DNA of 64,000 nucleotides from Solibacillus sp. FSL H8-0523 (GTDB lineage Bacteria; Bacillota; Bacilli; Bacillales_A; Planococcaceae), in contig NZ_CP150291.1 in assembly GCF_038051985.1 (NCBI RefSeq), positions 1,426,001 to 1,490,000 of the forward strand, given 5' to 3'. The notes under the pieces are model-generated. The model ran no database searches. It was not told the origin of the DNA and saw only the letters and a program-made list of their open reading frames with translations. Position 1 is the stretch's first letter. Each line of letters opens with the position of its first letter. Shown here piece by piece: positions 1-52,381 of this stretch. Both the position numbers and the translations under genes were made by a program.

Positions 1-1
1 T

Positions 2-445
2 GAATCGAGAAACTACGGCTTTGCACGCCATTTTAATCCGTTTATCGTCAACACCGTTGTTGGTTTTATTGGGCCGGAGTATTTATATGATAGTAAGCAG
101 GTGATTCGTGCGGGTTTAGAGGATCATTTTATGGGCAAAATGCACGGCCTGCCAATGGGTGTGGATATTTGTTATACGAATCATATAAAAGCCGACCAAA
201 ATGACAATGAAAATTTAGGGGTGCTACTCGCTGCAGCGGGTGTGAATTTTATTATTGCTGCACCAATGGGCGATGACGTCATGCTGAATTATCAGTCGAT
301 GAGCTATCATGATGTTCCGACACTGCAAGAACTGTTCAATAAAAGACCAGCACCACAATTTGAACGTTGGCTCGAAAAAATGGGTATTACGGAAAATGGC
401 CGCTTCACAAGTCGCGCAGGCGATTTAACGATTTTCGAAAAGTAG
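2..445 (+). CDS. eutB: ethanolamine ammonia-lyase large subunit, C-terminal part
   Basis: Partial gene, cut by the left window edge; about 147 residues of the C-terminal end remain, read in the frame that stops at 443-445. Typical EutB TIM-barrel end sequences are visible: GPEYLYDSKQVIRAGLEDHF, then MGKMHGLPMGVDICYTNHI and NFIIAAPMGDDVMLNYQS. EutB carries the active site of the adenosylcobalamin-dependent enzyme that converts ethanolamine to acetaldehyde and ammonia inside the Eut microcompartment. The eutC start follows after 8 bases, so the two subunits are co-translated neighbours. The B12 requirement of this enzyme links it functionally to the cobalamin uptake cluster at 42.5-52.4 kb (inference). 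Confidence 0.95.
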   Translation, partial: ESRNYGFARHFNPFIVNTVVGFIGPEYLYDSKQVIRAGLEDHFMGKMHGLPMGVDICYTNHIKADQNDNENLGVLLAAAGVNFIIAAPMGDDVMLNYQSMSYHDVPTLQELFNKRPAPQFERWLEKMGITENGRFTSRAGDLTIFEK

Positions 446-453
446 GTGAAAAC

Positions 454-1371
454 GTGGATAAGGCATTAGTGGAAATGATTACAAAATTAGTGACCGAACG
501 CTTACAGCAGGAGCACAGTGATTTGAAGCAACCAAAAGCAGTTGAAATTCCAAGTTCGAATGAGCCATTTATTGAGCTTTTTCAGCAAAGAAAACCGAGT
601 AGTACACAAGTGGTTAGTACGTCTCAAAAAGCGCAAAACGCCAAAGTGTTTGCAGAAACAGTTGATGACAAGTTTGCGCATGCTCGTTCGAAAACACCGG
701 CACGAGTTGGCGTGGGACTCACGGGGCCAAGACCTTTGACCAATACCATGCTAAAGTTCCGCTTTGATCATGCAGCTGCAGTCGATGCGGTTTACGGGGA
801 AGTGGAGCAAGGCTTACTTGAAAAATTGAAGCTGTTTACAATTGACACAAAGGCGCTTGATGACAAGGAAACGTACATTTTACGACCGGATTTAGGACGT
901 AAATTAACGGATGCAGCGAAGGAAACATTGCTACAAAAATGTGAGAAAAACGCGCAAGTACAAATCATCGTTTCCAATGGCCTAAGTGCGAGTGCAATCA
1001 ATGCTAATTTAGAAAATGTGCTTTTATCATTACAGCAAAGCTTAGCAAGTTTAAATTTGAAAATGGGGACACCGTTTTATATCGAACAAGGACGCGTTGG
1101 TTTAATGGATGATATCGGTGAAGTATTACAGCCGGAAGTGGTTGTCTACTTGATTGGCGAGCGCCCAGGCTTAGTATCGGCAGAATCAATGAGTGCGTAT
1201 TTGTGCTATAAGCCGCGTAAAGAGACGATTGAATCAGACCGTACCGTCGTCTCCAATATTCATAAAGGCGGGATTCCACCTGCAGAAGCTGGGGCGTATC
1301 TCGGGAATTTAATTCAGAAAATTTTGAAATACGAAGCAAGTGGTGTAACGCTCGTGCAAAGAGAGGAATAG
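454..1371 (+). CDS. eutC: ethanolamine ammonia-lyase small subunit
   Basis: 305 residues, the normal EutC size. The GTG at 454 is taken as start because AGGTGA lies just upstream at 444-449; the frame is open further upstream into eutB, but that extension is only the overlap. Family-typical stretches are seen: RVGVGLTGPRPLTNTMLKFR, VSNGLSASAINANLENVLL and YLIGERPGLVSAESMSAYL. The N-terminal 75 residues form an amphipathic stretch followed by a linker, where EutC usually carries its shell-targeting helix (family knowledge). It forms the EutBC holoenzyme and contributes to the cobalamin-binding interface. It is followed by eutL after 12 bases. Confidence 0.96.
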   Translation: MDKALVEMITKLVTERLQQEHSDLKQPKAVEIPSSNEPFIELFQQRKPSSTQVVSTSQKAQNAKVFAETVDDKFAHARSKTPARVGVGLTGPRPLTNTMLKFRFDHAAAVDAVYGEVEQGLLEKLKLFTIDTKALDDKETYILRPDLGRKLTDAAKETLLQKCEKNAQVQIIVSNGLSASAINANLENVLLSLQQSLASLNLKMGTPFYIEQGRVGLMDDIGEVLQPEVVVYLIGERPGLVSAESMSAYLCYKPRKETIESDRTVVSNIHKGGIPPAEAGAYLGNLIQKILKYEASGVTLVQREE

Positions 1372-15224: not shown

Positions 15225-16409
15225 ATGAAGCATAAAGCCTTTAAATTTCGTATTTTCCCAACGAAAGTGCAGGAAATTCTCATTAATAAAACGTTTGGCT
15301 GTGCGCGCTTTGTTTTCAATCAGCTGTTGGCCGAACAAAAACAACAGGACCACTACTGGCACGTCACCGAAGAACTTTTCCAAGCCGGCCAATTGCCTCA
15401 AAACACGTGGCAAGGAACGTTCTTTAAAAAGTACGACAATATCAAAAAACTACCTCATTTAAAGCAAGCCTATCCGTTCTTAAAAGAAGTCGACAGCATC
15501 GCCCTTCAAGCCGCTGTGGAGCACATGAGTGATGGCTATACACGCTATTACAAAAAACAAAACAAAGCCCCACGCTTTAAATCAAAACGCCATCCCGTCC
15601 AATCGTATACAACGAAATATGTGAATGATAATATTGTTATCCAAGGTCGGCACATTAAATTACCCAAGCTTGGGCTGGTCAAATTCGCGAAAAGTCGCGA
15701 GGTCAACGGGCGTATCTTACAGGTCACGATTCGACGAAATCCAAGTGGCAAGTATTTCATCGCCATTTTAGCGGAAGTACAGATGCACACGCTGCCTAAA
15801 ACCGGTTCAACGGTTGGGATTGACTTAGGCATCAAGCAGTTTGCGGTGCTGTCAGATGGCACGGTGTACGACAATCCCCGTTTTTTCCGGACACTCGAAG
15901 CGAAGCTAGCGAAAGAACAAAAAAAGTTAGCGGATCGTCGGCGTCTCGCTGTCGAACGCAATTGCCCTTTACACGAGGCGAAAAATTACCAAAAGCAAAA
16001 ACAAAAAGTGGCGCGCATCCACGAAAAAATCACGAATGCGCGCATGGATTACTTGCACAACATCACGACTCATCTCATCAAAAACCACGATGTCATTGGG
16101 TTGGAGGATTTGCGCGTAGCCAATCTGTTAAAAAATCACCACCTAGCCAAAGCGATTGCCGAAGTCAGTTGGGCAACGTTTCGAACACTACTCGAATACA
16201 AAGCGAATTGGTACGGCAAACAAGTCATTGTCGTGGGGAAAACCTTTGCGAGTAGCCAGCTGTGTTCCAACTGTGGCTATCAGCACAAAGAAGTGAAACA
16301 ACTGGCATTACGTGCGTGGACATGTCCAAATTGTCACGCACAGCACGACCGCGACTTGAACGCAAGTATCAATATTCAAAAGGAAGCAGCACGTCTAAGT
16401 GCTTCCTAA
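15225..16409 (+). CDS. tnpB: TnpB RNA-guided nuclease (OrfB)
   Basis: 394 residues, a full-length TnpB. It begins with [20 protein letters not shown]. The RuvC-like catalytic residues appear in [15 protein letters not shown] (Asp near residue 200), [10 protein letters not shown] (Glu near 293) and [11 protein letters not shown] (Asp near 377). A four-cysteine zinc finger (CSNCGY, then CPNCHAQ) lies between the last two. All catalytic positions look intact. AAGGAGGTG precedes the ATG. TnpB proteins use an RNA from the element's right end to cut the donor site and preserve the element (family knowledge). Confidence 0.95.
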
Positions 16410-41586: not shown

Positions 41587-42387
41587 ATGAACGAACAAAG
41601 CTATTTAACCCATACAATTACCAGTTTACGCGCGGTATATGAGCGTTTAACCGCTAATATTACCGAAAAAGACGCAAACTATAAGGATTTACAAGAATAT
41701 ATGATCGATTACAAGGCCGAGCTCGATAAATTTGAAGTTTACGATTACCAGCAAACGCTTAGCATGATTGATAAACAGGGCTTTCGTCAAGTGATGGAGC
41801 GCGAACAGGTGAAAAAGTTAATCGATTCACCGTACTTTGGAAATTTTGATTTTCAGTACGTAGGTGATGGCGAAGCAGAGCGCTTTTACGTTGGGCGTTT
41901 TGGGTTCCGTGAGCCAGACGGGACGACACTGATCTATGATTGGCGCGCACCGGTTTGTAATATGTATTACGAATTTGAGTTGGGCGAGGCTTATTATGAG
42001 GCGATGGACAAGCGTTTTGACGGAGAAATAACGGGCAAGCGCCAGATTAAAATTGAAAGCGGACAATTGCAGTACGCACTGGAAAGCTCACTGACGATTC
42101 AAGATGAAGTATTGCAGCAAACCTTAAACAAGCAGTCCACGGAAAAAATGAAAACCATTGTTACATCGATTCAGCGCGAGCAAAACCAAATTGTGCGTCA
42201 TGAAGCAGCGCATACATTGGTTATTCAAGGGGTTGCTGGATCTGGTAAAACCGCGGTGGCGCTGCACAGAATCGCTTACTTTTTATACAAATTCCGCGAT
42301 ACGTTGCGTCCTGAACGTATTTTTATTTTGTCTCCGAATAAGGTGTTTGGTGACTATATTTCAAGACAAGATAAAAAGAGCCCATAA
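41587..42387 (+). pseudogene. helD: helD-like RNA polymerase recycling helicase, truncated
   Basis: 266 residues remain of a protein that is normally about 700-780. The N-terminal coiled-coil arm and SF1 domain 1A start match HelD (RFGFREPDGTTLIYDWRAPV, Walker A GVAGSGKTAVALHRIAYFLY near residue 214, then FILSPNKVFGDYIS). The frame then leaves the family within a few residues (RQDKKSP) and stops. Helicase motifs II to VI are absent, so it cannot act as a motor. GGAGG lies upstream of the ATG, so a stub may still be made. The lost part was removed left of the B12 riboswitch. Confidence 0.85.
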
Positions 42388-42565
42388 CGACCTCGTGTAA
42401 TGTTAGTTAACTACACCAAGTATCAGAGAAAAAAACAGCGGTAATATTAATTGAAAATACAAATAAATGCTAGTAAAACAATAATTCGTCTAGAATTTTA
42501 ATATTTTCCTAGTACAGAAATATTTTTATGTTACACTGTTACGTAAATGAATATGAATTGCAGGA

Positions 42566-42735
42566 TTAAGGTGCTCGAAATTGAGCTTAATAGGGAATTC
42601 GGTGCAATACCGAAGCTGTTTCCGCAACTGTAAGTGTGAAAGAATGTGCAAATGATGCCACTGTCGAACGAGGAAAAATGCCTCAATTAGATGGGAAGGC
42701 TTGCACAGGATACACGAGCCAGGAGACCTACCTTT
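42566..42735 (+). ncRNA. cobalamin (AdoCbl) riboswitch aptamer
   Basis: Conserved B12-element sequences appear in order: AAGGTGCTC at the P1/P2 side, GGGAATTCGGTGCAATACCG, GCTGTTTCCGCAACTGTAAG, then CCACTG, GATGGGAAGGC and the B12 box GAGCCAGGAGACCTACCTTT at 42716-42735. It controls the downstream cluster of surface B12-binding-type proteins and the ECF transporter, normally switching it off when cobalamin is abundant (family knowledge). Confidence 0.95.
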
Positions 42736-42823
42736 GTCTGATCGTATTAACTCTCTTCGGAATAAGGAGAATGTACGGCAAATAGATGAACAGGTATGTG
42801 TATATCTTTTTTTCTGTTTTCCG

Positions 42824-42854
42824 CCATTTCTCAACTTCGAGAAATGGTTTTTTT
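42824..42854 (+). terminator. riboswitch-controlled terminator
   Basis: CCATTTCTC (42824-42832) pairs perfectly with GAGAAATGG (42839-42847), followed by seven T. It lies about 55 bases before the first gene of the cluster and is the likely expression platform. Confidence 0.9.
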
Positions 42855-42908
42855 GTTGTATGGGTTAATCGCAACTTATTCATAAAAATTTTTTAGGGGG
42901 ATTTTCAA

Positions 42909-45900
42909 GTGGGATTTTGGAAAAAGTGGTTGAATATCGCTTTAACCGCAGTGCTAATGCTGACGTTGCTAACACCAGCAACAGCGACGATAGCAAATGC
43001 AGAAGAACTCAATACAACTGCTGAGCAAACAGAGAATTTACTGGCAGTACAAGTTGAAATTGACGGACTTGATAAAAAAATAGTCGAATCAACAACAACG
43101 AACATAGCAGAGGGTACTAAGGCAATCGATGCAGTGAAGCAAGTACTAGACAACGCTAAAATTGCTTATGAAGTACTTGATGGCGACTATGGTCCATACA
43201 TTAAATCCATTGAGGGCTTAGCTGCAGGTAAGTTTAATGGCTGGGATGGCTGGATGTATACGGTGAATGGACAAGCACCATCTGTAGGCTTAGGCGCTTA
43301 TCCATTAGCAGCAAATGATGTGCTAAAGGTGTATTACAGCAAATATCCTGTATTATCGGCTGTAACAACTGAGAGCAACGGACAGCAAGCAGTAACACTA
43401 AATTTAGTTGGTGATCATTTTTCAGCTAGAGAGCTGGTTACCGCTTTAGAAAACTGGGAAGTACCAGCAGAAGTAACCTTACAAAGTGTTATCAGATACA
43501 GCAATGAAAAAGTGACACTTAAAATTCAAGCAAACCCAGGTACGTACACAATTAAAGCGCTAGCGCCTACATTAACAAGTGCGCAACAAGCAGAAGTAAC
43601 AATTGAAGTGAAAGATGCCGTAGCAGAAACTGTTCGATTAATCGAGGCATTACCTACAATTGAAGAACTGAGTGAAACAAACAAGCTGGCTTTAAAAGCA
43701 GCACGTGCAGCATTTGATGCACTAACAGCAGAGCAACAAGCACTTGTTACAAATAGTAATGAGCTAATTGAAAAAGAAAATACTTTTAAAACACTGAATG
43801 CTGTAACGGTAACAGTAAATGTTCGTGTTGAGGGTATTAAAGATACAACATTAAACGTAAAAAACTTTGTGGCTCATGGTGACGGAGAAGTTACGGCAGC
43901 AGGTGCGACCTTACAAGTATTAGAAGCAAATAAGATTCCAACAGATTACAGCACTTCTACAGGCTATTTCAAATCGATTAACAATGATGGCGAACGAGCG
44001 CTTGGTGATGGTAGTGGCTGGATGTACAAAGTAAATGGCGTCTATCCGGATGTCTATGGAAATGGTTATGTATTAAAAGACGGTGATGAAATTGTTTGGG
44101 AATTCATCAACTCATTTTCTGTAAGAGAAAATTATGATTATAATGGCGTCACATATATGTATTCTGGTGCAGACACAGTGGACGTCATTACGTTTAATCC
44201 GATTATCGAAATGTCACAAACGGTACAAGCTGGGCAAGATGTGACGATTAAAGTGACAGGTAACTATAATACAATCGATTACATGTTCGAAAAAAAATCG
44301 GGTCCTCATGCAGTTGCCTTAGAGGATGTATCGATTGAGTACAACGGCAAAGTGTACAAAACGGTCAAGCATGAAGAGACGATTGATGATGAAACAGTCG
44401 TTTACGGAAAAGCAGTTATTCCAGCTGAAGACGTCGTTCCAGGTACATTTGAACTTCGCTTTACAAAAGATTTACCAGGTACGATTAAAGATGCAAGTGG
44501 AAAAGACAAAGTATTAGAATCCTTCCCACGTATCTTACGCACATACAAAACTTTAGAGGTTTTAGAAGTAAGTCAGGACAATCGTAAATTAGCACAAGAT
44601 GCATTAGCATTAGGAAATCAATATTTAACAACAAACAACGAATTAGTATCAAAACGTGTGAACGAATCAAGTAGCGGCTTTTGGATGTTAGCAGCATTAA
44701 AAGCAGCAGGTGTGAATGTAACGAATTATCCATGGACAACGGCACCAACAGCTGAAGGAACGTTTTGGAAAACGAATTTAGAAGAGCCATTAAAAACAGC
44801 TGACCAAAAATTAGGCTCTATTATTGCAGCAACTGCATTAGGTTTAGACCCAACTAACTTAAAGGGCCGTAACCAAGTTGCCGATTTACTAGCAGGTCAA
44901 AACGAAGCAACGCATTTAATGGCAACAATTTATAGTGAACCATTAGCATTGATTGCACTTGATTTAGTAAAAGCGGACTATGATCGCCAACAGCATATAA
45001 AAGCGATTTTAAATTTACAAAATAGCACGACAGGCTTTTGGTCTGGTGGTATTGACATCACAGGCTGGGCACTATTCGCCTTAGCACCATATAAAGACCA
45101 GCCTGAAGTAAAAGCAGCTATCGACAAAGCAGTTGCCGCTTTACACAAAAACTATCAAGAAAAAGGCTTTACGAATAATGCCAACACAATGGCCGCAATG
45201 ATTTCAGGACTTGCATCAGCTGGCGAAGATGTATTTTCTGAAAAATGGACTTATGTAAAAGATGGGAAACACATTAATATCGTCGGACATTTAGTAGAAA
45301 ATTATATTTTTGAAGATGGTGGCGTACGATTCTTATCTAGCCAAAATAAATCTAGCTTAATGGCAGTTGAACAAGTGTATGTTGCTTTATTCGATGCATT
45401 GAACAATAAATCAACATTCTCAACATTAAATGAAGGTACACAAGCACCAACGCCAACAGAGCCAGGAGAAAATACAGGCGGGGGCACAACTTCACCTGAG
45501 CAGCCAGCACCAACACCGACTACAGATAAAGTAACGATGTCAATTGCTATTTCATCATCAGAAGTAGTACTGCCAAGTGAACAATTTGACATCAATGCCG
45601 ATGAAACCGCGTTTGATTTATTAAAACGTGTGACACAAGCAAAAAACATTGCACTAAATGCCCGAGAAACATCGATGGGTATGTATGTAGTGGGCATTGC
45701 AGGTATCAATGAATTTGACCGCGGTAAATTAAGTGGTTGGATGTATAGTGTAAACGGCGCGTATCCTTCTGTTTCAGCTAATCAATATGTGTTGGAAAAG
45801 GATGATGTCGTAAATTGGGTTTACACAACGGATTTAGGGGAAGACGTTGGTTCACCATCAGTTGGTGGTGGTGTAGCAACAGAAACGCCGAAAGAGCCTG

Positions 45901-46847
45901 AAAAAGTGGAAGAAAAGCCAACTGAAGCAACCTTAAATGAAGTGACAGCAGAGCAATTAAAAGATAAAGAACAAATTGTTGTAAAAGACAAATCAGGTAT
46001 TGAAGTGAGTGTTCCAACAGCTGGCTTACAACTAAAAGACGATGAAAAGTTAGTTGTAGCTGTACAAAATACTACTGAAAAGATTGAAGTAAACTTGAAT
46101 ATTGTTGCAGAAGATGGAACAACAACTGCAGTAAATACAGGTAAAAATTATGTAAAAGTAACACTAACACTAGAAACAAAAGATTCGAATCTTGTCGTTC
46201 TACAATTAGTAGATGGTCAATATCGTGCAGTACCACATACAGTTGTTGATGGTGTTGTAACGATTTTAACAAAAACAAGTGGAACATTCATCGTTAGCAA
46301 TGAGCAAGTATCATTTAGCGATATCGACAATTTATTTAGTAAAGAAGAAATCGAATTCTTAGCAAACCGTCATGTTGTTTTAGGAGCGGACGGGGCATTT
46401 ATGCCAAATAGCGCGCTTACACGTGGACAATTTGCGATGATGATTGCACGTGCGTTAGGCTTACAAACATCTGAAAACAATCCATTTACTGATACGGTTG
46501 GTAAGGAATATGAGAAAGATGTGCAAGCTTTATTTGAAGCAGGCATTACAACCGGTACATCTGACACAACATTCGATCCGACAGCAAAAATTACTCGTGA
46601 GCAGTCAGCGGCATTTATGGCACGTGTGTTTGAGTACATGGGTATGAAAGCAAATACCTCTTCAACTGTAAGTTACTCAGACGATGAAGCGATTAGTAGC
46701 GTTTATGCAGCAGCTATTGCATTACTTGCGGAGTACGATATTATGACAGGAAAATCAGATGGAACATTCGATCCAAAAGGTCACTTGTCACGTGCAGAGA
46801 TGGCGAAAATCTTTAAACGTACACTAAATAAAGCTGGGTTAATGTAA
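42909..46847 (+). CDS. SLH-anchored multidomain protein with three DUF4430 domains and an alpha/alpha-toroid (transcobalamin/intrinsic-factor-like)
   Basis: 1312 residues; GTG start with GGGGG upstream. Signal peptide about 1-31. DUF4430 (transcobalamin C-terminal-like) domains lie at about 45-145 (GWDGWMYTVNGQAPSVGLGA), 298-400 (GSGWMYKVNGVYPDVYGNGY) and 885-990 (LSGWMYSVNGAYPSVSANQY). An alpha/alpha-toroid (prenyltransferase/terpene-cyclase-like) domain at about 560-850 shows GFWSGGIDITGWALFALAPY. A Pro/Thr/Gly linker, a small beta domain and three SLH repeats follow from 1138 (GAFMPNSALTRGQFAMMIAR, DTTFDPTAKITREQSAAFMA, GTFDPKGHLSRAEMAKIFKR), binding it to the cell wall. The combination of toroid and DUF4430 is that of animal intrinsic factor. 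The cobalamin-binding role is inferred from the riboswitch and the ECF transporter. Confidence 0.9.
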   Translation: MGFWKKWLNIALTAVLMLTLLTPATATIANAEELNTTAEQTENLLAVQVEIDGLDKKIVESTTTNIAEGTKAIDAVKQVLDNAKIAYEVLDGDYGPYIKSIEGLAAGKFNGWDGWMYTVNGQAPSVGLGAYPLAANDVLKVYYSKYPVLSAVTTESNGQQAVTLNLVGDHFSARELVTALENWEVPAEVTLQSVIRYSNEKVTLKIQANPGTYTIKALAPTLTSAQQAEVTIEVKDAVAETVRLIEALPTIEELSETNKLALKAARAAFDALTAEQQALVTNSNELIEKENTFKTLNAVTVTVNVRVEGIKDTTLNVKNFVAHGDGEVTAAGATLQVLEANKIPTDYSTSTGYFKSINNDGERALGDGSGWMYKVNGVYPDVYGNGYVLKDGDEIVWEFINSFSVRENYDYNGVTYMYSGADTVDVITFNPIIEMSQTVQAGQDVTIKVTGNYNTIDYMFEKKSGPHAVALEDVSIEYNGKVYKTVKHEETIDDETVVYGKAVIPAEDVVPGTFELRFTKDLPGTIKDASGKDKVLESFPRILRTYKTLEVLEVSQDNRKLAQDALALGNQYLTTNNELVSKRVNESSSGFWMLAALKAAGVNVTNYPWTTAPTAEGTFWKTNLEEPLKTADQKLGSIIAATALGLDPTNLKGRNQVADLLAGQNEATHLMATIYSEPLALIALDLVKADYDRQQHIKAILNLQNSTTGFWSGGIDITGWALFALAPYKDQPEVKAAIDKAVAALHKNYQEKGFTNNANTMAAMISGLASAGEDVFSEKWTYVKDGKHINIVGHLVENYIFEDGGVRFLSSQNKSSLMAVEQVYVALFDALNNKSTFSTLNEGTQAPTPTEPGENTGGGTTSPEQPAPTPTTDKVTMSIAISSSEVVLPSEQFDINADETAFDLLKRVTQAKNIALNARETSMGMYVVGIAGINEFDRGKLSGWMYSVNGAYPSVSANQYVLEKDDVVNWVYTTDLGEDVGSPSVGGGVATETPKEPEKVEEKPTEATLNEVTAEQLKDKEQIVVKDKSGIEVSVPTAGLQLKDDEKLVVAVQNTTEKIEVNLNIVAEDGTTTAVNTGKNYVKVTLTLETKDSNLVVLQLVDGQYRAVPHTVVDGVVTILTKTSGTFIVSNEQVSFSDIDNLFSKEEIEFLANRHVVLGADGAFMPNSALTRGQFAMMIARALGLQTSENNPFTDTVGKEYEKDVQALFEAGITTGTSDTTFDPTAKITREQSAAFMARVFEYMGMKANTSSTVSYSDDEAISSVYAAAIALLAEYDIMTGKSDGTFDPKGHLSRAEMAKIFKRTLNKAGLM

Positions 46848-46852
46848 GGATG

Positions 46853-46883
46853 AAAATCCACCATAATTTATGGTGGATTTTTG
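46853..46883 (+). terminator. internal terminator between the first and second B12-cluster genes
   Basis: A perfect 12-bp stem (AAAATCCACCAT at 46853-46864, ATGGTGGATTTT at 46870-46881), loop AATTT, is followed by T. Partial termination here would make the large surface protein more abundant than the rest. Confidence 0.8.
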
Positions 46884-46908
46884 CCATATTCTTTGGAGGG
46901 AAACAACG

Positions 46909-48345
46909 ATGAAAAATATCATAAAAATAGTCGGTTCATTTGTACTTGCTATTGTATTAATTTTACCTTTATCGATACAAGCATATGCAGAAACAACCGC
47001 ACAAGAGGCTTACAACACATCAAGTCACTATATGCTAGAGCGCGTACCGAACCCAACATATGGTGATGAATGGGTGATAATTGCTTTGGCAAGAGGCGAG
47101 GCCAATGTACCTGCCACGTATTTCGATACGTACTATCAAAACTTGCAGCAGCAAATACAGGAAAAGCAAGGAAATTTACACAAATATAAATATACAGAAT
47201 ACGCGCGTGTCATTTTGGCATTATCTGCAATCGGCAAGGATGCCACAAATGTCGGCGGATATAATTTAGTCGAAAAGCTACAAAATTTTGATCAAGTCGT
47301 TTGGCAAGGAATGAATGGTCCGATTTTTGCATTAATTGCATTGGATTCATGGGGGTATGAGGCAACCGTACGTGATAAGTACATCCAAGCAATTGTAGAA
47401 AGTCAGCTAGAAAACGGAGGATTTGCATTGTCTGGCGATGCTGCAGATTTAGATATTACCGCGATGGCCATTCAAGCATTAGCTCCGTATAAAGAGCGAG
47501 AACATGTGGCTTTAACGATTCAACATGCACAAAGCTTCATGAAACAGCAATCAAAAATTGGCTACAACAGTTCAGAAACAGTAGCACAAATCGTCACTGC
47601 GCTATCGAGTATCGGCATTAACTCTCAGAACGACAAACAGATCGAGCGCTTACTTGATTTTTATAACGAAGCTGATGGTGGATTTAAGCATGTACATGAA
47701 GAAACCGCTTCAAACGGAATGGCAACCGAGCAAGCGAGTTATGCATTAGCTGCTTATCATCGATTTTTAAATGGTCAATCCTCACTTTATGACATGCAGG
47801 ACACACGCAGTAGCTTTCGAGATACCGCAACAAGTTGGGCAAAGGACTATATCGAACAATCGTATCGTTTAGGGCTCATTAATGGCTTTGAAGATGGCAC
47901 ATTCCGCCCAAATAATCATTTAACGCGTTCCCAGTCAGCCGTCATTTTAGTGCGCGCGATGAAATTTAATTCTCACCAAGCAGCGCCATATCTAGATTTA
48001 GGAAACATGCCGCTTACCATGAAAAATGAAATCGCCGCAGCGTATGAAGCAGGCATTATTAAATACAATAATGGGGTTTTTAATCCAAATGATAAAGTGA
48101 CACGCATTCAGCTAGCGCTGATGTTACTACGTACGTATAACCAACAACAGGCACCATTTAGCCCGGAAAAGTACGTCTTTTATAAAGATACAGTCAATTT
48201 AGGTGAAGAGCAGCAAGTAGCATTAACATTTTTGGCACAACATGAAATCGCGCAAGGATCAAATGGCAACTTCAACCCGAATCAACCAACGACACGTGCA
48301 GAAGCTACAAAAATGCTCATTAATTTTTTAAAAGTAATGGAGTGA
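46909..48345 (+). CDS. SLH-anchored alpha/alpha-toroid protein (transcobalamin alpha-domain-like)
   Basis: 478 residues from the ATG at 46909, with TTTGGAGGG upstream. Signal peptide about 1-26 (VLAIVLILPLSIQAYA). Prenyltransferase-like alpha/alpha-toroid at about 30-295: GMNGPIFALIALDSWGYEAT, SQLENGGFALSGDAADLDIT, then AMAIQALAPYKE. Three SLH repeats cover 305-478 (GLINGFEDGTFRPNNHLTRS, GVFNPNDKVTRIQLALMLLR, SNGNFNPNQPTTRAEATKML). It has no DUF4430 domain; that domain is supplied by the next gene, so the pair looks like a split version of the first protein. 63 bases after the first gene, 5 bases before the lipoprotein gene. Confidence 0.88.
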   Translation: MKNIIKIVGSFVLAIVLILPLSIQAYAETTAQEAYNTSSHYMLERVPNPTYGDEWVIIALARGEANVPATYFDTYYQNLQQQIQEKQGNLHKYKYTEYARVILALSAIGKDATNVGGYNLVEKLQNFDQVVWQGMNGPIFALIALDSWGYEATVRDKYIQAIVESQLENGGFALSGDAADLDITAMAIQALAPYKEREHVALTIQHAQSFMKQQSKIGYNSSETVAQIVTALSSIGINSQNDKQIERLLDFYNEADGGFKHVHEETASNGMATEQASYALAAYHRFLNGQSSLYDMQDTRSSFRDTATSWAKDYIEQSYRLGLINGFEDGTFRPNNHLTRSQSAVILVRAMKFNSHQAAPYLDLGNMPLTMKNEIAAAYEAGIIKYNNGVFNPNDKVTRIQLALMLLRTYNQQQAPFSPEKYVFYKDTVNLGEEQQVALTFLAQHEIAQGSNGNFNPNQPTTRAEATKMLINFLKVME

Positions 48346-48349
48346 GCAA

Positions 48350-49216
48350 ATGATGAAAAAAACAACAGCCATGCTCATACTGCTTTTGACACTGATTTTA
48401 TCCGCTTGTAATTTTCAAACGGTTGAACAATATGAGCAAATGGAAGAAGAGCAGCGAAGTATAGAAAATGAACAGCTTGAAAAACAGCTAGTGACAGTTG
48501 AAGAACCGGAAATTGTTGAACAAAAAAAAGTAGAAAAGCAAACCCAAGAAATTAACGAACAATTAGCTCCAGTTGAAGAGAAAGAAAAAGAAAAAGTAGA
48601 AAATACGGAAATTCCGCAACAGCCTGAACAAAAGCAAGAGCAAGAGCAAGAGCAAAAACAACCAGCGCAACAAACGGAATCAAAGCCAGCAGAAACGAAG
48701 CCCGTTGAAAAACAACAATCTACAACAGCTGTTGCTCCAAATAAAAAGCCTGATTCTACACAAGTCGAACAAAAGCAACCCGTTGTGGAACAGCCAAAAA
48801 GCTACGTTACGATTTCCATTCATGCGAATACGCTATTAAAAAATTTGGACAAGCTCGACCCTGCTTTACAAAGTGAACAATACGTTCCAGCAAATGGGAC
48901 GATTTTATCTTCAAAAAAATATGAATTATTGTCAGACAAAGACACGGTTTGGACTGTGTTACAACGTGCAGTGAAGGAGCATAAAATCCATCTCGAGTAT
49001 GAAGGGGCAAATGAAAATGTCTACAATAATGTTTACATCGAGGGCATCAATCATATTTACGAATTTAGTGCAGGCCCGTTAAGCGGCTGGATGTACAGAG
49101 TGAATGGTGTCTACCCAAGCTACGGCTGCAGTCAGTATGTGCTAAAAGACGGGGATCAAATTGAGTGGCATTACACCGTTGACCTTGGACGTGATTTAGG
49201 AGCTGATGGTAGATGA
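48350..49216 (+). CDS. DUF4430 lipoprotein (transcobalamin beta-domain-like)
   Basis: 288 residues. Lipoprotein signal with lipobox LSAC (Cys20). Then a long Glu/Gln/Lys/Pro-rich, low-complexity spacer (about 25-150) that could span the cell wall, and a single DUF4430 domain at about 155-288 with LSGWMYRVNGVYPSYGCSQY and the end IEWHYTVDLGRDLG. Anchored in the outer face of the membrane, it is well placed to hand a ligand to the ECF transporter whose T gene overlaps its stop by 4 bases. The second of the two adjacent ATG codons (48353) is equally possible. Confidence 0.88.
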   Translation: MMKKTTAMLILLLTLILSACNFQTVEQYEQMEEEQRSIENEQLEKQLVTVEEPEIVEQKKVEKQTQEINEQLAPVEEKEKEKVENTEIPQQPEQKQEQEQEQKQPAQQTESKPAETKPVEKQQSTTAVAPNKKPDSTQVEQKQPVVEQPKSYVTISIHANTLLKNLDKLDPALQSEQYVPANGTILSSKKYELLSDKDTVWTVLQRAVKEHKIHLEYEGANENVYNNVYIEGINHIYEFSAGPLSGWMYRVNGVYPSYGCSQYVLKDGDQIEWHYTVDLGRDLGADGR

Positions 49217-50097
49217 TCAATAGTTTCGAAACGTATCATCCCATCGTCCTTTTTACATTTTTCGTTGCCGCAATCGGGATGGGTATGTTTTTAATGCATC
49301 CGGTATTTTTAGCCATTACAATTTTCTCGGCGATGAGTTTGAATTTTGCGCTTCGCCGAGGACGATTTTTAAAAGATTGGAAACTTTATGTGCCTTTATT
49401 TTTGATTATGGCTATCATCAATCCACTCATTAGTCATAACGGAAAAATAGTACTGTTTTATATGAATGGCAATGCAATTACAGTCGAAGCCATTTGTTAT
49501 GGGCTAGCGATGGCAACGATGTTAACAGCTGTTATGCTTTGGTTTAGTAGTTATAACGAAGTCATAACGTCGGATAAGTTTTTATATTTGTTCGGAAAAA
49601 TTTCTCCCGTTTTAGCACTTACATTATCCATTACTATGCGTTTAGTGCCACATTTTACTGAGCAGCTGAGTCGAATTGCGAAGGCTCAAAAAACGATGGG
49701 CATGGATTATTCAACCGGGAGTATTGTTCAGCGCTCGAAAAGTGTAATGCGCATCATTTCGATTTTAATAACGTGGGCACTCGAAAATGCGATAGAAACG
49801 GCGGATTCAATGAAAGCTAGAGGCTATGGTGTTGGGAAGCGTTCCACATTTTCATTGTTCGTATTTGAACGCCGCGATAGCTGGGTACTCGCGATTATTT
49901 GTGTATTACTTAGCGTAACGCTAGTCGGTAGTGTATTAGGGTACGCTACCTTTTATTATTATCCAACGTTTTCAGTCATCAGTGGGGAGTGGCAATCGTT
50001 CGTCATGTATGGCATGTATTTTATGCTCCTGATGCTACCACTTGCAATTGAATTGAAGGAGGCATTAAAATGGCAATCATTAAAATCGAAAATGTAA
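49213..50097 (+). CDS. ECF transporter T component
   Basis: 294 residues. EcfT/CbiQ-family membrane protein with five or six helices and the cytoplasmic coupling motif SMKARGYGVGKR near residue 205, in which the Ala-Arg-Gly contacts the ATPases. Starts by ATGA overlap with the lipoprotein gene and overlaps the ATPase gene by 28 bases. A dedicated T component suggests a group I ECF system serving one substrate, here probably cobalamin. Confidence 0.93.
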   Translation: MINSFETYHPIVLFTFFVAAIGMGMFLMHPVFLAITIFSAMSLNFALRRGRFLKDWKLYVPLFLIMAIINPLISHNGKIVLFYMNGNAITVEAICYGLAMATMLTAVMLWFSSYNEVITSDKFLYLFGKISPVLALTLSITMRLVPHFTEQLSRIAKAQKTMGMDYSTGSIVQRSKSVMRIISILITWALENAIETADSMKARGYGVGKRSTFSLFVFERRDSWVLAIICVLLSVTLVGSVLGYATFYYYPTFSVISGEWQSFVMYGMYFMLLMLPLAIELKEALKWQSLKSKM

Positions 50098-51707
50098 GTT
50101 TTACCTATCCACATGAATCAAAATCCGTTTTAAAAAACATTCAGCTTGATATCGAGCAAGGTGAATTCATTACTTTAATTGGGCAATCGGGTTGTGGGAA
50201 AAGTACATTATTAAAGCATTTAAAAAAAGAGCTACAGCCTCATGGTGAAAAGCAAGGGGCTATTTATTATAATGGGACAAATTTAAGGGAATTAGATGAC
50301 TATACAGCCGCAACCGACATAGGCTTCGTCATGCAAAACCCAGAAAATCAAATTGTGACGGATAAAGTATGGCATGAATTGGCTTTTGGTTTAGAAAATA
50401 TAGGCGTTGATCAAGTTACAATTCGTCGTAGAGTAGCAGAAATGGCAAACTTTTTTGGCATTCATAAATGGTTTCGAGAAAAAACAACGGTGCTATCTGG
50501 TGGTCAAAAACAGCTGTTAAATTTAGCCTCCATTTTAGTGATGCAGCCCAAAGTATTATTACTAGATGAACCCACTTCCCAGCTTGATCCCATTGCTGCG
50601 ATGGAGTTTATTCATACACTTCATCGCTTGAATGAAGAGCTGGGCATAACAATTATTTGTATCGAGCACCGCTTAGAAGAAGTGTTGCCCATTTCAGACC
50701 GTGTCGTTGTCATGGACCGAGGTGAAATTTTATATGATGGTGAACCAAAGCAAGTTTTAAATGGCTTACATAAACAACATCCGATGATTCAAGCGCTTCC
50801 GACAGCAACGAAGATTTTTGCTGCACTTCATAGTGATGGGGTCGTCCCTATTACGATTCGAGAAGGCCAAAAATGGTTAGCGAAACAGTCCATACAAGAG
50901 GCACCTCATCTACAGCAACCTGTCCAATCTGAGCAATCAATTGTCCTGCAGGCGAAGGAGATAACATTCCGCTATGACAAAAATGATGCCGATATATTAC
51001 GCAATTTTAATATTAACGTTCGCACAAATGATTTTTTCACCATTATCGGAGGAAATGGCTCAGGAAAGTCAACAGCATTAAACGTGCTGGCAGGTCTCGA
51101 AAAACCGTATCGTGGGGAAGTTTTTATCAATGGGAAGAAACTAAAAAGCTATCGTAATGATGAGTTGTACCGAAATATACTGGCCTATTTACCGCAAGAT
51201 CCGAAAATTTTATTTACAGAAAAAACGGCTCAAAAAGAATTAGAAGTCGTGCAAGGTAAGCAGGAAAAACTCACGGAACTTGTGCAACTATTTCACTTAG
51301 AAGATAAGCTACAGCGTCATCCGTATGATTTAAGTGGGGGAGAACAGCAAAAACTTGCATTGGCAAAAATTTTACTGCTAGAGCCGCAAATCTTACTGCT
51401 TGATGAACCAACAAAAGGCATTGATGCCCATGCGAAAGAAGAGCTTGCACAAAATTTAAAAATGCTTCAAAAGGGTGGATTGACAATCGTCATGGTAACA
51501 CATGATATTGAATTTTCAGCGCAGCATAGTACACGTTGTGCATTATTCTTCGATGGGAATCTTGTGTCAGAAGACGAACCGAATGCTTTTTATAGTGGCA
51601 ATAGCTTTTATACGACAGCAGCGCATCGAATTTCACGTAATGTGATGAAGCATGCCATTACGTGTGAGGATGTGGTGAAACAATGCAAAAAAGCACAATT
51701 CGTTTAA
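50070..51707 (+). CDS. ECF transporter fused A-A' ATPase
   Basis: 545 residues holding two complete ABC ATPase domains. First: Walker A GQSGCGKSTLLKHL (about 36), Q-loop VMQNPENQIVTDKV, signature LSGGQKQLLNLA (about 140), Walker B VLLLDEPTSQLDP. Second: Walker A GGNGSGKSTALNVL (about 326), signature LSGGEQQKLALA (about 420), Walker B ILLLDEPTKGID. All catalytic motifs are intact. AAGGAGG precedes the ATG inside the T gene. The 50-residue segment after the second domain ends in a Cys-containing tail (KHAITCEDVVKQC). Confidence 0.94.
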   Translation: MAIIKIENVSFTYPHESKSVLKNIQLDIEQGEFITLIGQSGCGKSTLLKHLKKELQPHGEKQGAIYYNGTNLRELDDYTAATDIGFVMQNPENQIVTDKVWHELAFGLENIGVDQVTIRRRVAEMANFFGIHKWFREKTTVLSGGQKQLLNLASILVMQPKVLLLDEPTSQLDPIAAMEFIHTLHRLNEELGITIICIEHRLEEVLPISDRVVVMDRGEILYDGEPKQVLNGLHKQHPMIQALPTATKIFAALHSDGVVPITIREGQKWLAKQSIQEAPHLQQPVQSEQSIVLQAKEITFRYDKNDADILRNFNINVRTNDFFTIIGGNGSGKSTALNVLAGLEKPYRGEVFINGKKLKSYRNDELYRNILAYLPQDPKILFTEKTAQKELEVVQGKQEKLTELVQLFHLEDKLQRHPYDLSGGEQQKLALAKILLLEPQILLLDEPTKGIDAHAKEELAQNLKMLQKGGLTIVMVTHDIEFSAQHSTRCALFFDGNLVSEDEPNAFYSGNSFYTTAAHRISRNVMKHAITCEDVVKQCKKAQFV

Positions 51708-52381
51708 TCACGTCCATTCTTGTATTTTTTGTTCTCATACCGGTTACTTTATATTTAGGGATTACGGTTTTTGAAGATCGAAAATATTATATGATTTCTT
51801 TGTGCATCATCGCGCTTGCATGTATCCCATTTTTTGTTTCCTTTGAACGACGTAAGCCGCAGCCGCGTGAAATGTTAACGATTGCCGTCATGGCAGCCAT
51901 TTCTGTTGCGGGACGTTGTTTATTTGTTGCGACACCAGGATTTAAGCCAGTGTCAGCAATTACGGCAATTACAGGCTTTACACTTGGCGCAGAAGCAGGT
52001 TTCCTAACGGGTGCATTATCTGCGTTGGTTTCCAATATGTTTTTCGGACAGGGACCGTGGACACCGTTTCAAATGTTCACCTGGGGCATGATTGGTTTTA
52101 TTGCTGGATTGCTTGGTAAAACGGGGTGGATGCATAAAAAAATTCCGCTCATCTTATTCGGAATCTTTGCAGGCATCTTCTTTTCGTTCGGTATGGATAT
52201 ATGGGGAGCGATTTCGACATACGGTGTTTTTGAATGGGAAGCTTACATATTAGCGATGACATCTGCTGTACCATTTACGATTATATATTGCGTTTCGAAT
52301 GTCATTTTTTTATTAGTCCTAGCAAAACCGATTACTGAAAAATTACAGCGAATTAAAACGAAATATGGACTGATGCAGTAA
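51683..52381 (+). CDS. ECF transporter substrate-binding S component, probable cobalamin (CbrT-like)
   Basis: 232 residues with about seven hydrophobic segments. The central part (GRCLFVATPGFKPVSAITAI, then FGQGPWTPFQMFTWGMIGF) has the S-component pattern, including the Gly/Pro-rich loops that close over the ligand. Overlaps the ATPase gene by 25 bases. Cobalamin specificity is inferred from the riboswitch and from the CbrT precedent of ECF-type B12 import in lactobacilli; the ligand cannot be read from sequence alone. Last gene of the cluster, followed by a strong terminator. Confidence 0.88.
   Translation: MQKSTIRLITSILVFFVLIPVTLYLGITVFEDRKYYMISLCIIALACIPFFVSFERRKPQPREMLTIAVMAAISVAGRCLFVATPGFKPVSAITAITGFTLGAEAGFLTGALSALVSNMFFGQGPWTPFQMFTWGMIGFIAGLLGKTGWMHKKIPLILFGIFAGIFFSFGMDIWGAISTYGVFEWEAYILAMTSAVPFTIIYCVSNVIFLLVLAKPITEKLQRIKTKYGLMQ

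Follow-up and report, generated by a model that had tools for sequence, protein, structure and literature searches.

The window analysed here is a stretch of 64,000 nucleotides from Solibacillus sp. FSL H8-0523 (contig NZ_CP150291.1, positions 1,426,001 to 1,490,000), and its subject is a putative vitamin B12 uptake operon of six genes, all on the (+) strand, that follows a cobalamin riboswitch and reaches nt 52381. Its features, in window positions, are:

42552..42749, (+): cobalamin riboswitch aptamer, RF00174 (covariance model 100.9 bits, E 4.5e-24; gathering score 31.5)
42823..42848, (+): terminator-like hairpin and T run (10 pairs, 4 GC, T-rich tail)
42909..46847, (+): P1, 1312 amino acids (PF14478 153 bits; S-layer homology (SLH) 90.8 bits)
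46851..46883, (+): intercistronic hairpin between P1 and P2, 15 bp (fold -22.8 kcal/mol, z -3.47)
46909..48345, (+): P2, toroid and three SLH domains, no DUF4430 (SLH 98.2 bits; toroid profile 2e-83)
48350..49216, (+): P3, a lipoprotein of 288 amino acids (PF14478 63.5 bits; DUF4430 profile 3e-32)
49213..50097, (+): EcfT, CbiQ family (PF02361 39.5 bits)
50070..51707, (+): fused EcfA-EcfA' double ATPase (TIGR04520 375.8 bits, TIGR04521 349 bits, both above their cut-offs)
51683..52381, (+): predicted CbrT-type S component (6fnp_A 2e-10; family profile 1.8e-24)

The preliminary description of this DNA had read a riboswitch with terminator, a pair of SLH proteins, one lipoprotein with DUF4430 and a full energy-coupling factor (ECF) set from the letters alone, and all were confirmed in place. 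The last four genes do overlap or nearly abut: P2 and P3 are 4 bp apart, and P3-EcfT, EcfT-EcfA and EcfA-S overlap. The longest P2 open reading frame (ORF) is 46870–48345 (491 amino acids), with the true start probably at 46909, where a GGAGG ribosome-binding site was seen by eye before the ATG. The riboswitch match is full length (model positions 1–189). The hairpin at 42823–42848 precedes the first start codon and is likely to be the expression platform; the hairpin and T run were also seen, by eye, in the aligned leaders of two congeners (L026 and L027). Cobalamin riboswitches are usually off switches (PMC11477304), and the direction of this one is taken from the usual behaviour of its class. 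A foreign base composition of the operon was rejected, as its GC content (0.37–0.42) resembles that of the flanks.

P1 is the most elaborate of the proteins. A signal peptide (by eye) is followed by these domains:

43113..43346, (+): DUF4430 domain 1 (profile 1e-22, PF14478)
43887..44117, (+): DUF4430 domain 2 (profile 9e-21, PF14478)
44676..45443, (+): alpha/alpha-toroid domain (iterated profile 2e-72)
45600..45839, (+): DUF4430 domain 3, C-terminal to the toroid as in transcobalamin (PF14478 6.7e-18)
46365..46814, (+): three SLH wall-anchoring domains (PF00395; S-layer protein Sap 6bt4 4.2e-11)

Homologous toroids were found by iterated profile in P1 (residues 590–845, 2e-72) and P2 (66–314, 2e-83); Pfam gave no toroid in P1 and placed that of P2 below threshold (17.9 bits against a cut-off of 26.5). 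P3 carries a lipobox (by eye), a Glu/Gln-rich tether and a C-terminal DUF4430 domain at 48938–49189. PF14478 was over its cut-off in four domains, and the genome has no DUF4430 outside the operon. The extracellular location of the DUF4430 proteins is read, by eye, from the signal peptide and lipobox. SLH anchoring requires a CsaB-like pyruvyl transferase; the genome encodes one, and three SLH domains are present. In an alignment of the P3 family (A5), consensus cysteines lie in the motifs FSCG, GCS and YTCDLG, of which the P3 of the window retains the middle one alone.

The transporter genes encode EcfT (PF02361), two EcfA units (TIGR04520 and TIGR04521) and a membrane S component (PF07155/PF12822). 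Against the PDB, CbrT was the sole S component matched up to E=1 (6fnp_A, 2e-10). A profile of 17 relatives gave CbrT (6FNP) at 1.8e-24, the next best being RibU at 3.7e-4, then 4hzu (0.023) and FolT (0.033); riboflavin was rejected as the substrate on these values, and specificity for another vitamin, which would have spoken against the preliminary description, did not emerge. The S component is predicted, from this closeness to CbrT, to be a B12 S component of the CbrT type. ECF-CbrT of Lactobacillus delbrueckii has been shown experimentally to take up both cobalamin and cobinamide at the expense of ATP (PMC5997447). It shares with the window system the S family, EcfT and two EcfA, and differs in using a shared (group II) module and in an S component without the extra N-terminal hydrophobic hairpin found here by hydropathy (residues about 12–54). 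Among the best 80 of at least 592 loci, the nearest S components are those of Lysinibacillus macroides (85%) and 'Bacillus ndiopicus' (82%).

DUF4430 is tightly paired with CbrT across the surveyed class. In one draw of 398 class genomes, searched for both, DUF4430 was found in 141 (138 over the Pfam cut-off) and a CbrT homologue in 137, all of which also had DUF4430. None had CbrT alone, and the four with DUF4430 and no CbrT were weak cases (E 3e-4 to 6e-4). Counted by genus, CbrT was present in 48/146 and DUF4430 in 50/146. The Fisher value for co-occurrence (2e-103) overstates the evidence because the genomes share kinship. Distances were counted in 110 of the 137 genomes, those with both places among the matches listed: the two lay no more than 10 kb apart on one strand in 107, and less than 500 bp apart in 42 of these. 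The exceptions were G106 and G081, at 577 kb and 12.5 kb, and G154, with the two on different contigs.

A survey of the riboswitch alongside DUF4430, which the preliminary description had proposed, covered 45 genomes with DUF4430, made up of the present genome, three of its congeners and 41 hand-picked one per genus among the placed matches listed. A riboswitch was located within 10 kb upstream of DUF4430, on the same strand, in 35 (0.24 expected), one of which (G259) has an RF00174 match slightly below the gathering score. The remaining ten comprise eight with no riboswitch match and two (G043 and G081) with none within 10 kb. The further loci were the best 80 of at least 592 confirmed loci with record titles; DUF4430 was present in 64 (63 by ORFs, and L182 by six-frame reading) and a toroid in 54.

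The form of these systems varies. Among 40 regions around hand-chosen DUF4430 genes, an S component was present in 38, after six-frame reading of four apparent exceptions. Fourteen show a minimal form, in which the DUF4430 protein and the S component are accompanied by no toroid and no EcfT; most of the others possess a dedicated EcfT and ATPase, and many have toroid and SLH proteins besides. Dedicated-system S components carry the extra N-terminal hairpin, the S core starting at residue 34 or later in 84/89 loci with EcfT and at residue 10 or earlier in 14/14 minimal loci. The median start of DUF4430 in the lipoprotein, taken from longest-ORF starts and uncorrected for kinship, is 194 in 18 SLH loci, 88 in 40 toroid loci without SLH and 69 in 14 minimal loci. 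The tether is longest where SLH proteins occur, as expected if the lipoprotein must reach into the wall.

Some loci are organised differently. L028 and L029 (genome G013, same genus) form a much enlarged locus in which a toroid protein with a near-identical N-terminus follows each of two B12 riboswitches; a MoxR ATPase, a transglutaminase-domain protein, a CobD-like gene, more toroid and DUF4430 proteins and two sets of EcfT and EcfA are also present. In Desulfosporosinus (L159 1082–1794), a tandem pair of B12 riboswitches stands before a toroid-DUF4430 operon. A Lactobacillus kefiranofaciens plasmid (NZ_CP140263.1; L194 2282–4521) carries a CbrT-type S gene, a toroid protein annotated as hypothetical and then the ethanolamine gene eutP.

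The corrin-ring enzyme CbiC was not found in the Solibacillus genome, which therefore probably must import corrinoids; B12-binding domains were over the cut-off in four of its proteins. Six further B12 riboswitches are present. The genes that follow them encode BtuF- and BtuC-like proteins together with an adenosyltransferase, another BtuF-like protein accompanied by CobU, CobS- and CobC-like proteins (by eye), MetE, the large chain of a ribonucleotide reductase and pyruvate carboxylase. The genome thus has at least two likely routes for B12 uptake, this operon being one, and the earlier likening of the operon to BtuB/BtuF holds only in part, since BtuF- and BtuC-like proteins are encoded separately. 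BtuFCD, likewise a B12 importer with components downstream of a B12 riboswitch in this genome, differs in having a Peripla_BP_2 binding protein and a FecCD permease, neither of which is among the six operon proteins.

Taken together, it is likely that the operon encodes a corrinoid scavenging system, shut off by intracellular adenosylcobalamin, with capture at the wall, relay by the lipoprotein and import by the ECF transporter. When B12 is scarce, the riboswitch would let transcription through the terminator, and adenosylcobalamin would close it. P1 and P2, held on the wall by SLH domains, would capture B12 through their toroid and DUF4430 (beta-grasp) domains. P3, tethered to the membrane by a long flexible linker, would accept the vitamin and pass it on to the S component of CbrT type; import would be powered by the ECF module, EcfT with the fused EcfA-A'. 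The parts, the B12 switch, the DUF4430-CbrT pairing and the kinships of the S component and DUF4430 are read from sequence; from them we infer corrinoid binding by the surface domains, the relay order and the contact between lipoprotein and S component.

Several observations weigh against this reading. The window S component is about 30% identical to the proven CbrT, so the transfer of function spans that distance. In a tree of 120 S components, with no outgroup, a 97/93 split separates the two. The CbrT side holds 16 of 18 minimal-system rows, the proven CbrT included. On the window side are 104 rows, among them every one of the 90 dedicated-module rows and the two remaining minimal rows, L093 and L097, which have long branches. 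ECF-CbrT was active in vitro without any DUF4430 protein (PMC5997447), and the lipoprotein is therefore not required for transport as such. DUF4430 was not found in 16 of the 80 further loci; 12 of these contigs start less than 1 kb from the first transporter gene, and the other four (L123, L154, L157 and L164) had sequence room, so the pairing is very strong in the surveyed class and not absolute beyond it. Co-divergence of DUF4430 and S beyond that of the ATPase is weak (partial r 0.17, 10/2000 permutations as high, 68 loci). The last such point concerns the animal carriers: the toroid profile matched no transcobalamin or intrinsic factor chain (up to E=10).

The domains had been described as transcobalamin-like, and by sequence this stands for the beta domain and not for the toroid. 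The DUF4430 profile A2 (46 domains) matched a Ruminococcus protein (3u7z, 7e-6) and human transcobalamin-1 (1.3e-4), with weaker matches to transcobalamin-2 (0.06) and intrinsic factor (0.12). These matches relate DUF4430 to the beta domain of transcobalamin. No animal carrier was matched by the lipoprotein-only profile A5 (up to E=1) or by the combined toroid-DUF4430 profile A4 (up to E=10). The profile of 38 toroids found squalene-hopene cyclases at 4e-28, its nearest relatives by sequence. In Pfam, with E up to 1, 30 of the 38 touched Prenyltrans, 20 the A-macroglobulin TED family and one PF01122 (E=0.01); the P1 toroid alone matched no family up to E=1, and neither P1 nor P2 matched PF01122 up to E=0.1. 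The toroids of the window are thus, by sequence, members of the alpha/alpha-toroid superfamily and nothing closer, and membership of the animal carrier family through the toroid was rejected. Like intrinsic factor and transcobalamin, P1 has a toroid and then a beta domain in one chain (residues 590–845 and 898–977); unlike them, it is multi-domain and wall-bound, and the two halves also occur on separate proteins.

In the main rival reading, P3 is a cap or stabiliser: its DUF4430 domain would rest against the outside of the S component and close over bound B12, or keep the apo form folded, with no shuttling. The minimal systems, in 14 of the 40 chosen regions a DUF4430 protein and S alone with a short tether, are consistent with this, as is the instability of apo-CbrT in detergent (PMC5997447). 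The beta domain and toroid of transcobalamin sandwich B12 (PMC1796856), so the S component could stand in for the toroid. Against this, the tethers of most SLH-type systems, about 140–220 residues after the lipobox, fit reach and not a fixed cap, and ECF-CbrT functions without the lipoprotein; we regard a cap as unlikely, though well short of far-fetched. That the preferred cargo is a precursor or another cobamide, such as cobinamide, seems rather doubtful. ECF-CbrT and BtuF accept both (PMC5997447), and the genome has CobU as well as the CobS- and CobC-like neighbours noted above, but CbrT binds cobalamin about fourfold more tightly (PMC5997447) and Lactobacillus relatives adjoin nrdJ and adenosyltransferase. 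It is improbable that the surface proteins bind a wall polymer or host protein and merely share the operon: the sequence matches of the toroids to squalene cyclases and the TED family speak for it, and a reviewer of PMC1796856 cautioned that ligands may be diverse, but linkage to the B12 riboswitch and CbrT is very frequent in the surveys and all DUF4430 domains of the genome lie here. Transport of another vitamin or of cobalt, suggested by the Pfam name of the S component (ECF-ribofla_trS, PF07155, 43.6 bits) and by the match of EcfT to the cobalt protein CbiQ, is very improbable, as the proven CbrT also scores on PF07155 (23.3 bits, below the cut-off of 26.7), the E-value for CbrT is 20 orders of magnitude better than that for RibU, the operon is preceded by a B12 riboswitch, and CbiM and CbiN are absent from the Pfam matches listed for its proteins.

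The scavenging reading can be carried further through L. delbrueckii, where the gene order is nrdJ-cbrS-cbrT-pduO and the nature of CbrS is not stated in the part of the paper drawn on here (PMC5997447). Lactobacillus intestinalis has the order nrdJ, DUF4430, S component (59% to the proven CbrT) and adenosyltransferase. As the two orders match, CbrS is, by synteny, probably a DUF4430 protein, which would give an ECF transporter an extracytoplasmic partner; ECF transporters have been described as using a membrane S component instead of a soluble or lipid-anchored binding protein. Neither the 398 class genomes nor 29 genomes of family f4 gave a CbrT match like that of L. delbrueckii (best identity 49%). 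Elsewhere the order is nrdJ, adenosyltransferase, DUF4430 and S (Lactiplantibacillus, L. plantarum) or DUF4430 and then S (Enterococcus raffinosus). Plasmids of E. faecalis and E. faecium carry all four genes (S, nrdJ, adenosyltransferase and DUF4430) within 6 kb, with S on the opposite strand. The E. faecalis plasmid was rejected as a case of CbrT without DUF4430: that plasmid does carry the DUF4430 gene, about 4.3 kb from CbrT, on the far side of nrdJ and adenosyltransferase and with an insertion sequence element in the interval. The E. faecium plasmid was rejected as a case of DUF4430 without CbrT, since the 'hypothetical protein' encoded next to nrdJ is homologous to CbrT (1.8e-44).

A wider proposal is put forward tentatively, as possible without yet being probable: that CbrT-type ECF transporters have a near-obligate DUF4430 lipoprotein partner (CbrS). 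The minimal machine would be a lipoprotein and an S component that hold B12 between them, as animal carriers do between beta domain and toroid. The operon of the window would be an expanded form, in which the halves of transcobalamin are spread over wall and membrane proteins and pass B12 across the thick wall.

The preliminary description had also cast the operon as supplier of the ethanolamine enzyme EutBC at the left end of the window. EutC is complete there, while only the tail of EutB lies inside. Its role as a dedicated customer is not supported within the genus: of 16 genomes, two have EutC and four DUF4430, and only this genome has both. Two EutBC pairs (EutB by eye) occur in one eut cluster (G000:C1:1420807-1427353), which overlaps window positions 1–1371; the second pair sits just outside the window.

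An unexpected target of a B12 riboswitch in this genome is the pyruvate carboxylase gene (L023 10205–10384 and 10553–13999; G000:C1 about 2530704–2534498), which is perhaps an anaplerotic backup for when a B12-dependent route fails. A full-length B12 riboswitch with no clear downstream gene stands just after it (L023 14164–14341; G000:C1:2534663-2534840), followed by a (+) ORF of 59 amino acids and then an opposite-strand gene. Within the window, a HelD-like ORF of 266 amino acids (41587–42387) ends shortly 5′ of the operon riboswitch. It matches positions 82–277 of the 779-position HelD model and is apparently a truncated gene, possibly marking an insertion boundary. An IS605 OrfB/TnpB-like gene with a Cas12f1-like TNB domain lies at 15225–16409.

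The central idea of B12 scavenging is not new. Burroughs et al. (2007) defined the DUF4430/SLBB domain, noted toroid fusions and operons with CbiO and CbiQ genes, found the hosts usually to be without key B12 synthesis enzymes, and proposed both B12 scavenging and transfer of the toroid-SLBB carrier from bacteria to animals (PMC1796856). Their operons resemble the present one in secreted Gram-positive toroid-DUF4430/SLBB proteins, CbiO/CbiQ-like genes and, often, a second SLBB protein. The riboswitch, the CbrT-type S component, the lipoprotein tether, the SLH anchoring and the CbrT pairing are not described in the part of that account drawn on here. What appears to be new is this pairing, the minimal module, the assignment of CbrS, the tether and hairpin trends and a well-organised SLH example. 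Among the open-licence papers listed and passages drawn on, none connects DUF4430 with CbrT or reports that a bacterial DUF4430 protein binds B12, which does not establish absence from print. BtuG of Bacteroides is likewise a surface lipoprotein that catches B12 for a transporter, but acts at a Gram-negative outer membrane with BtuB as partner and is said to be exclusive to Bacteroidetes (PMC6143338).

Outside a thick wall, Gram-positive B12 auxotrophs need to trap a cofactor that is both large and scarce. The assignment of CbrS connects work on DUF4430 scavenging with work on ECF-CbrT, which were not found connected in the papers drawn on. If the pairing of DUF4430 with CbrT is functional, a studied vitamin transporter has so far lacked one part of its working unit. 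Under the same condition, the 2007 proposal that animal carriers came from bacteria would gain a bacterial system in which the ancestral job is measurable.

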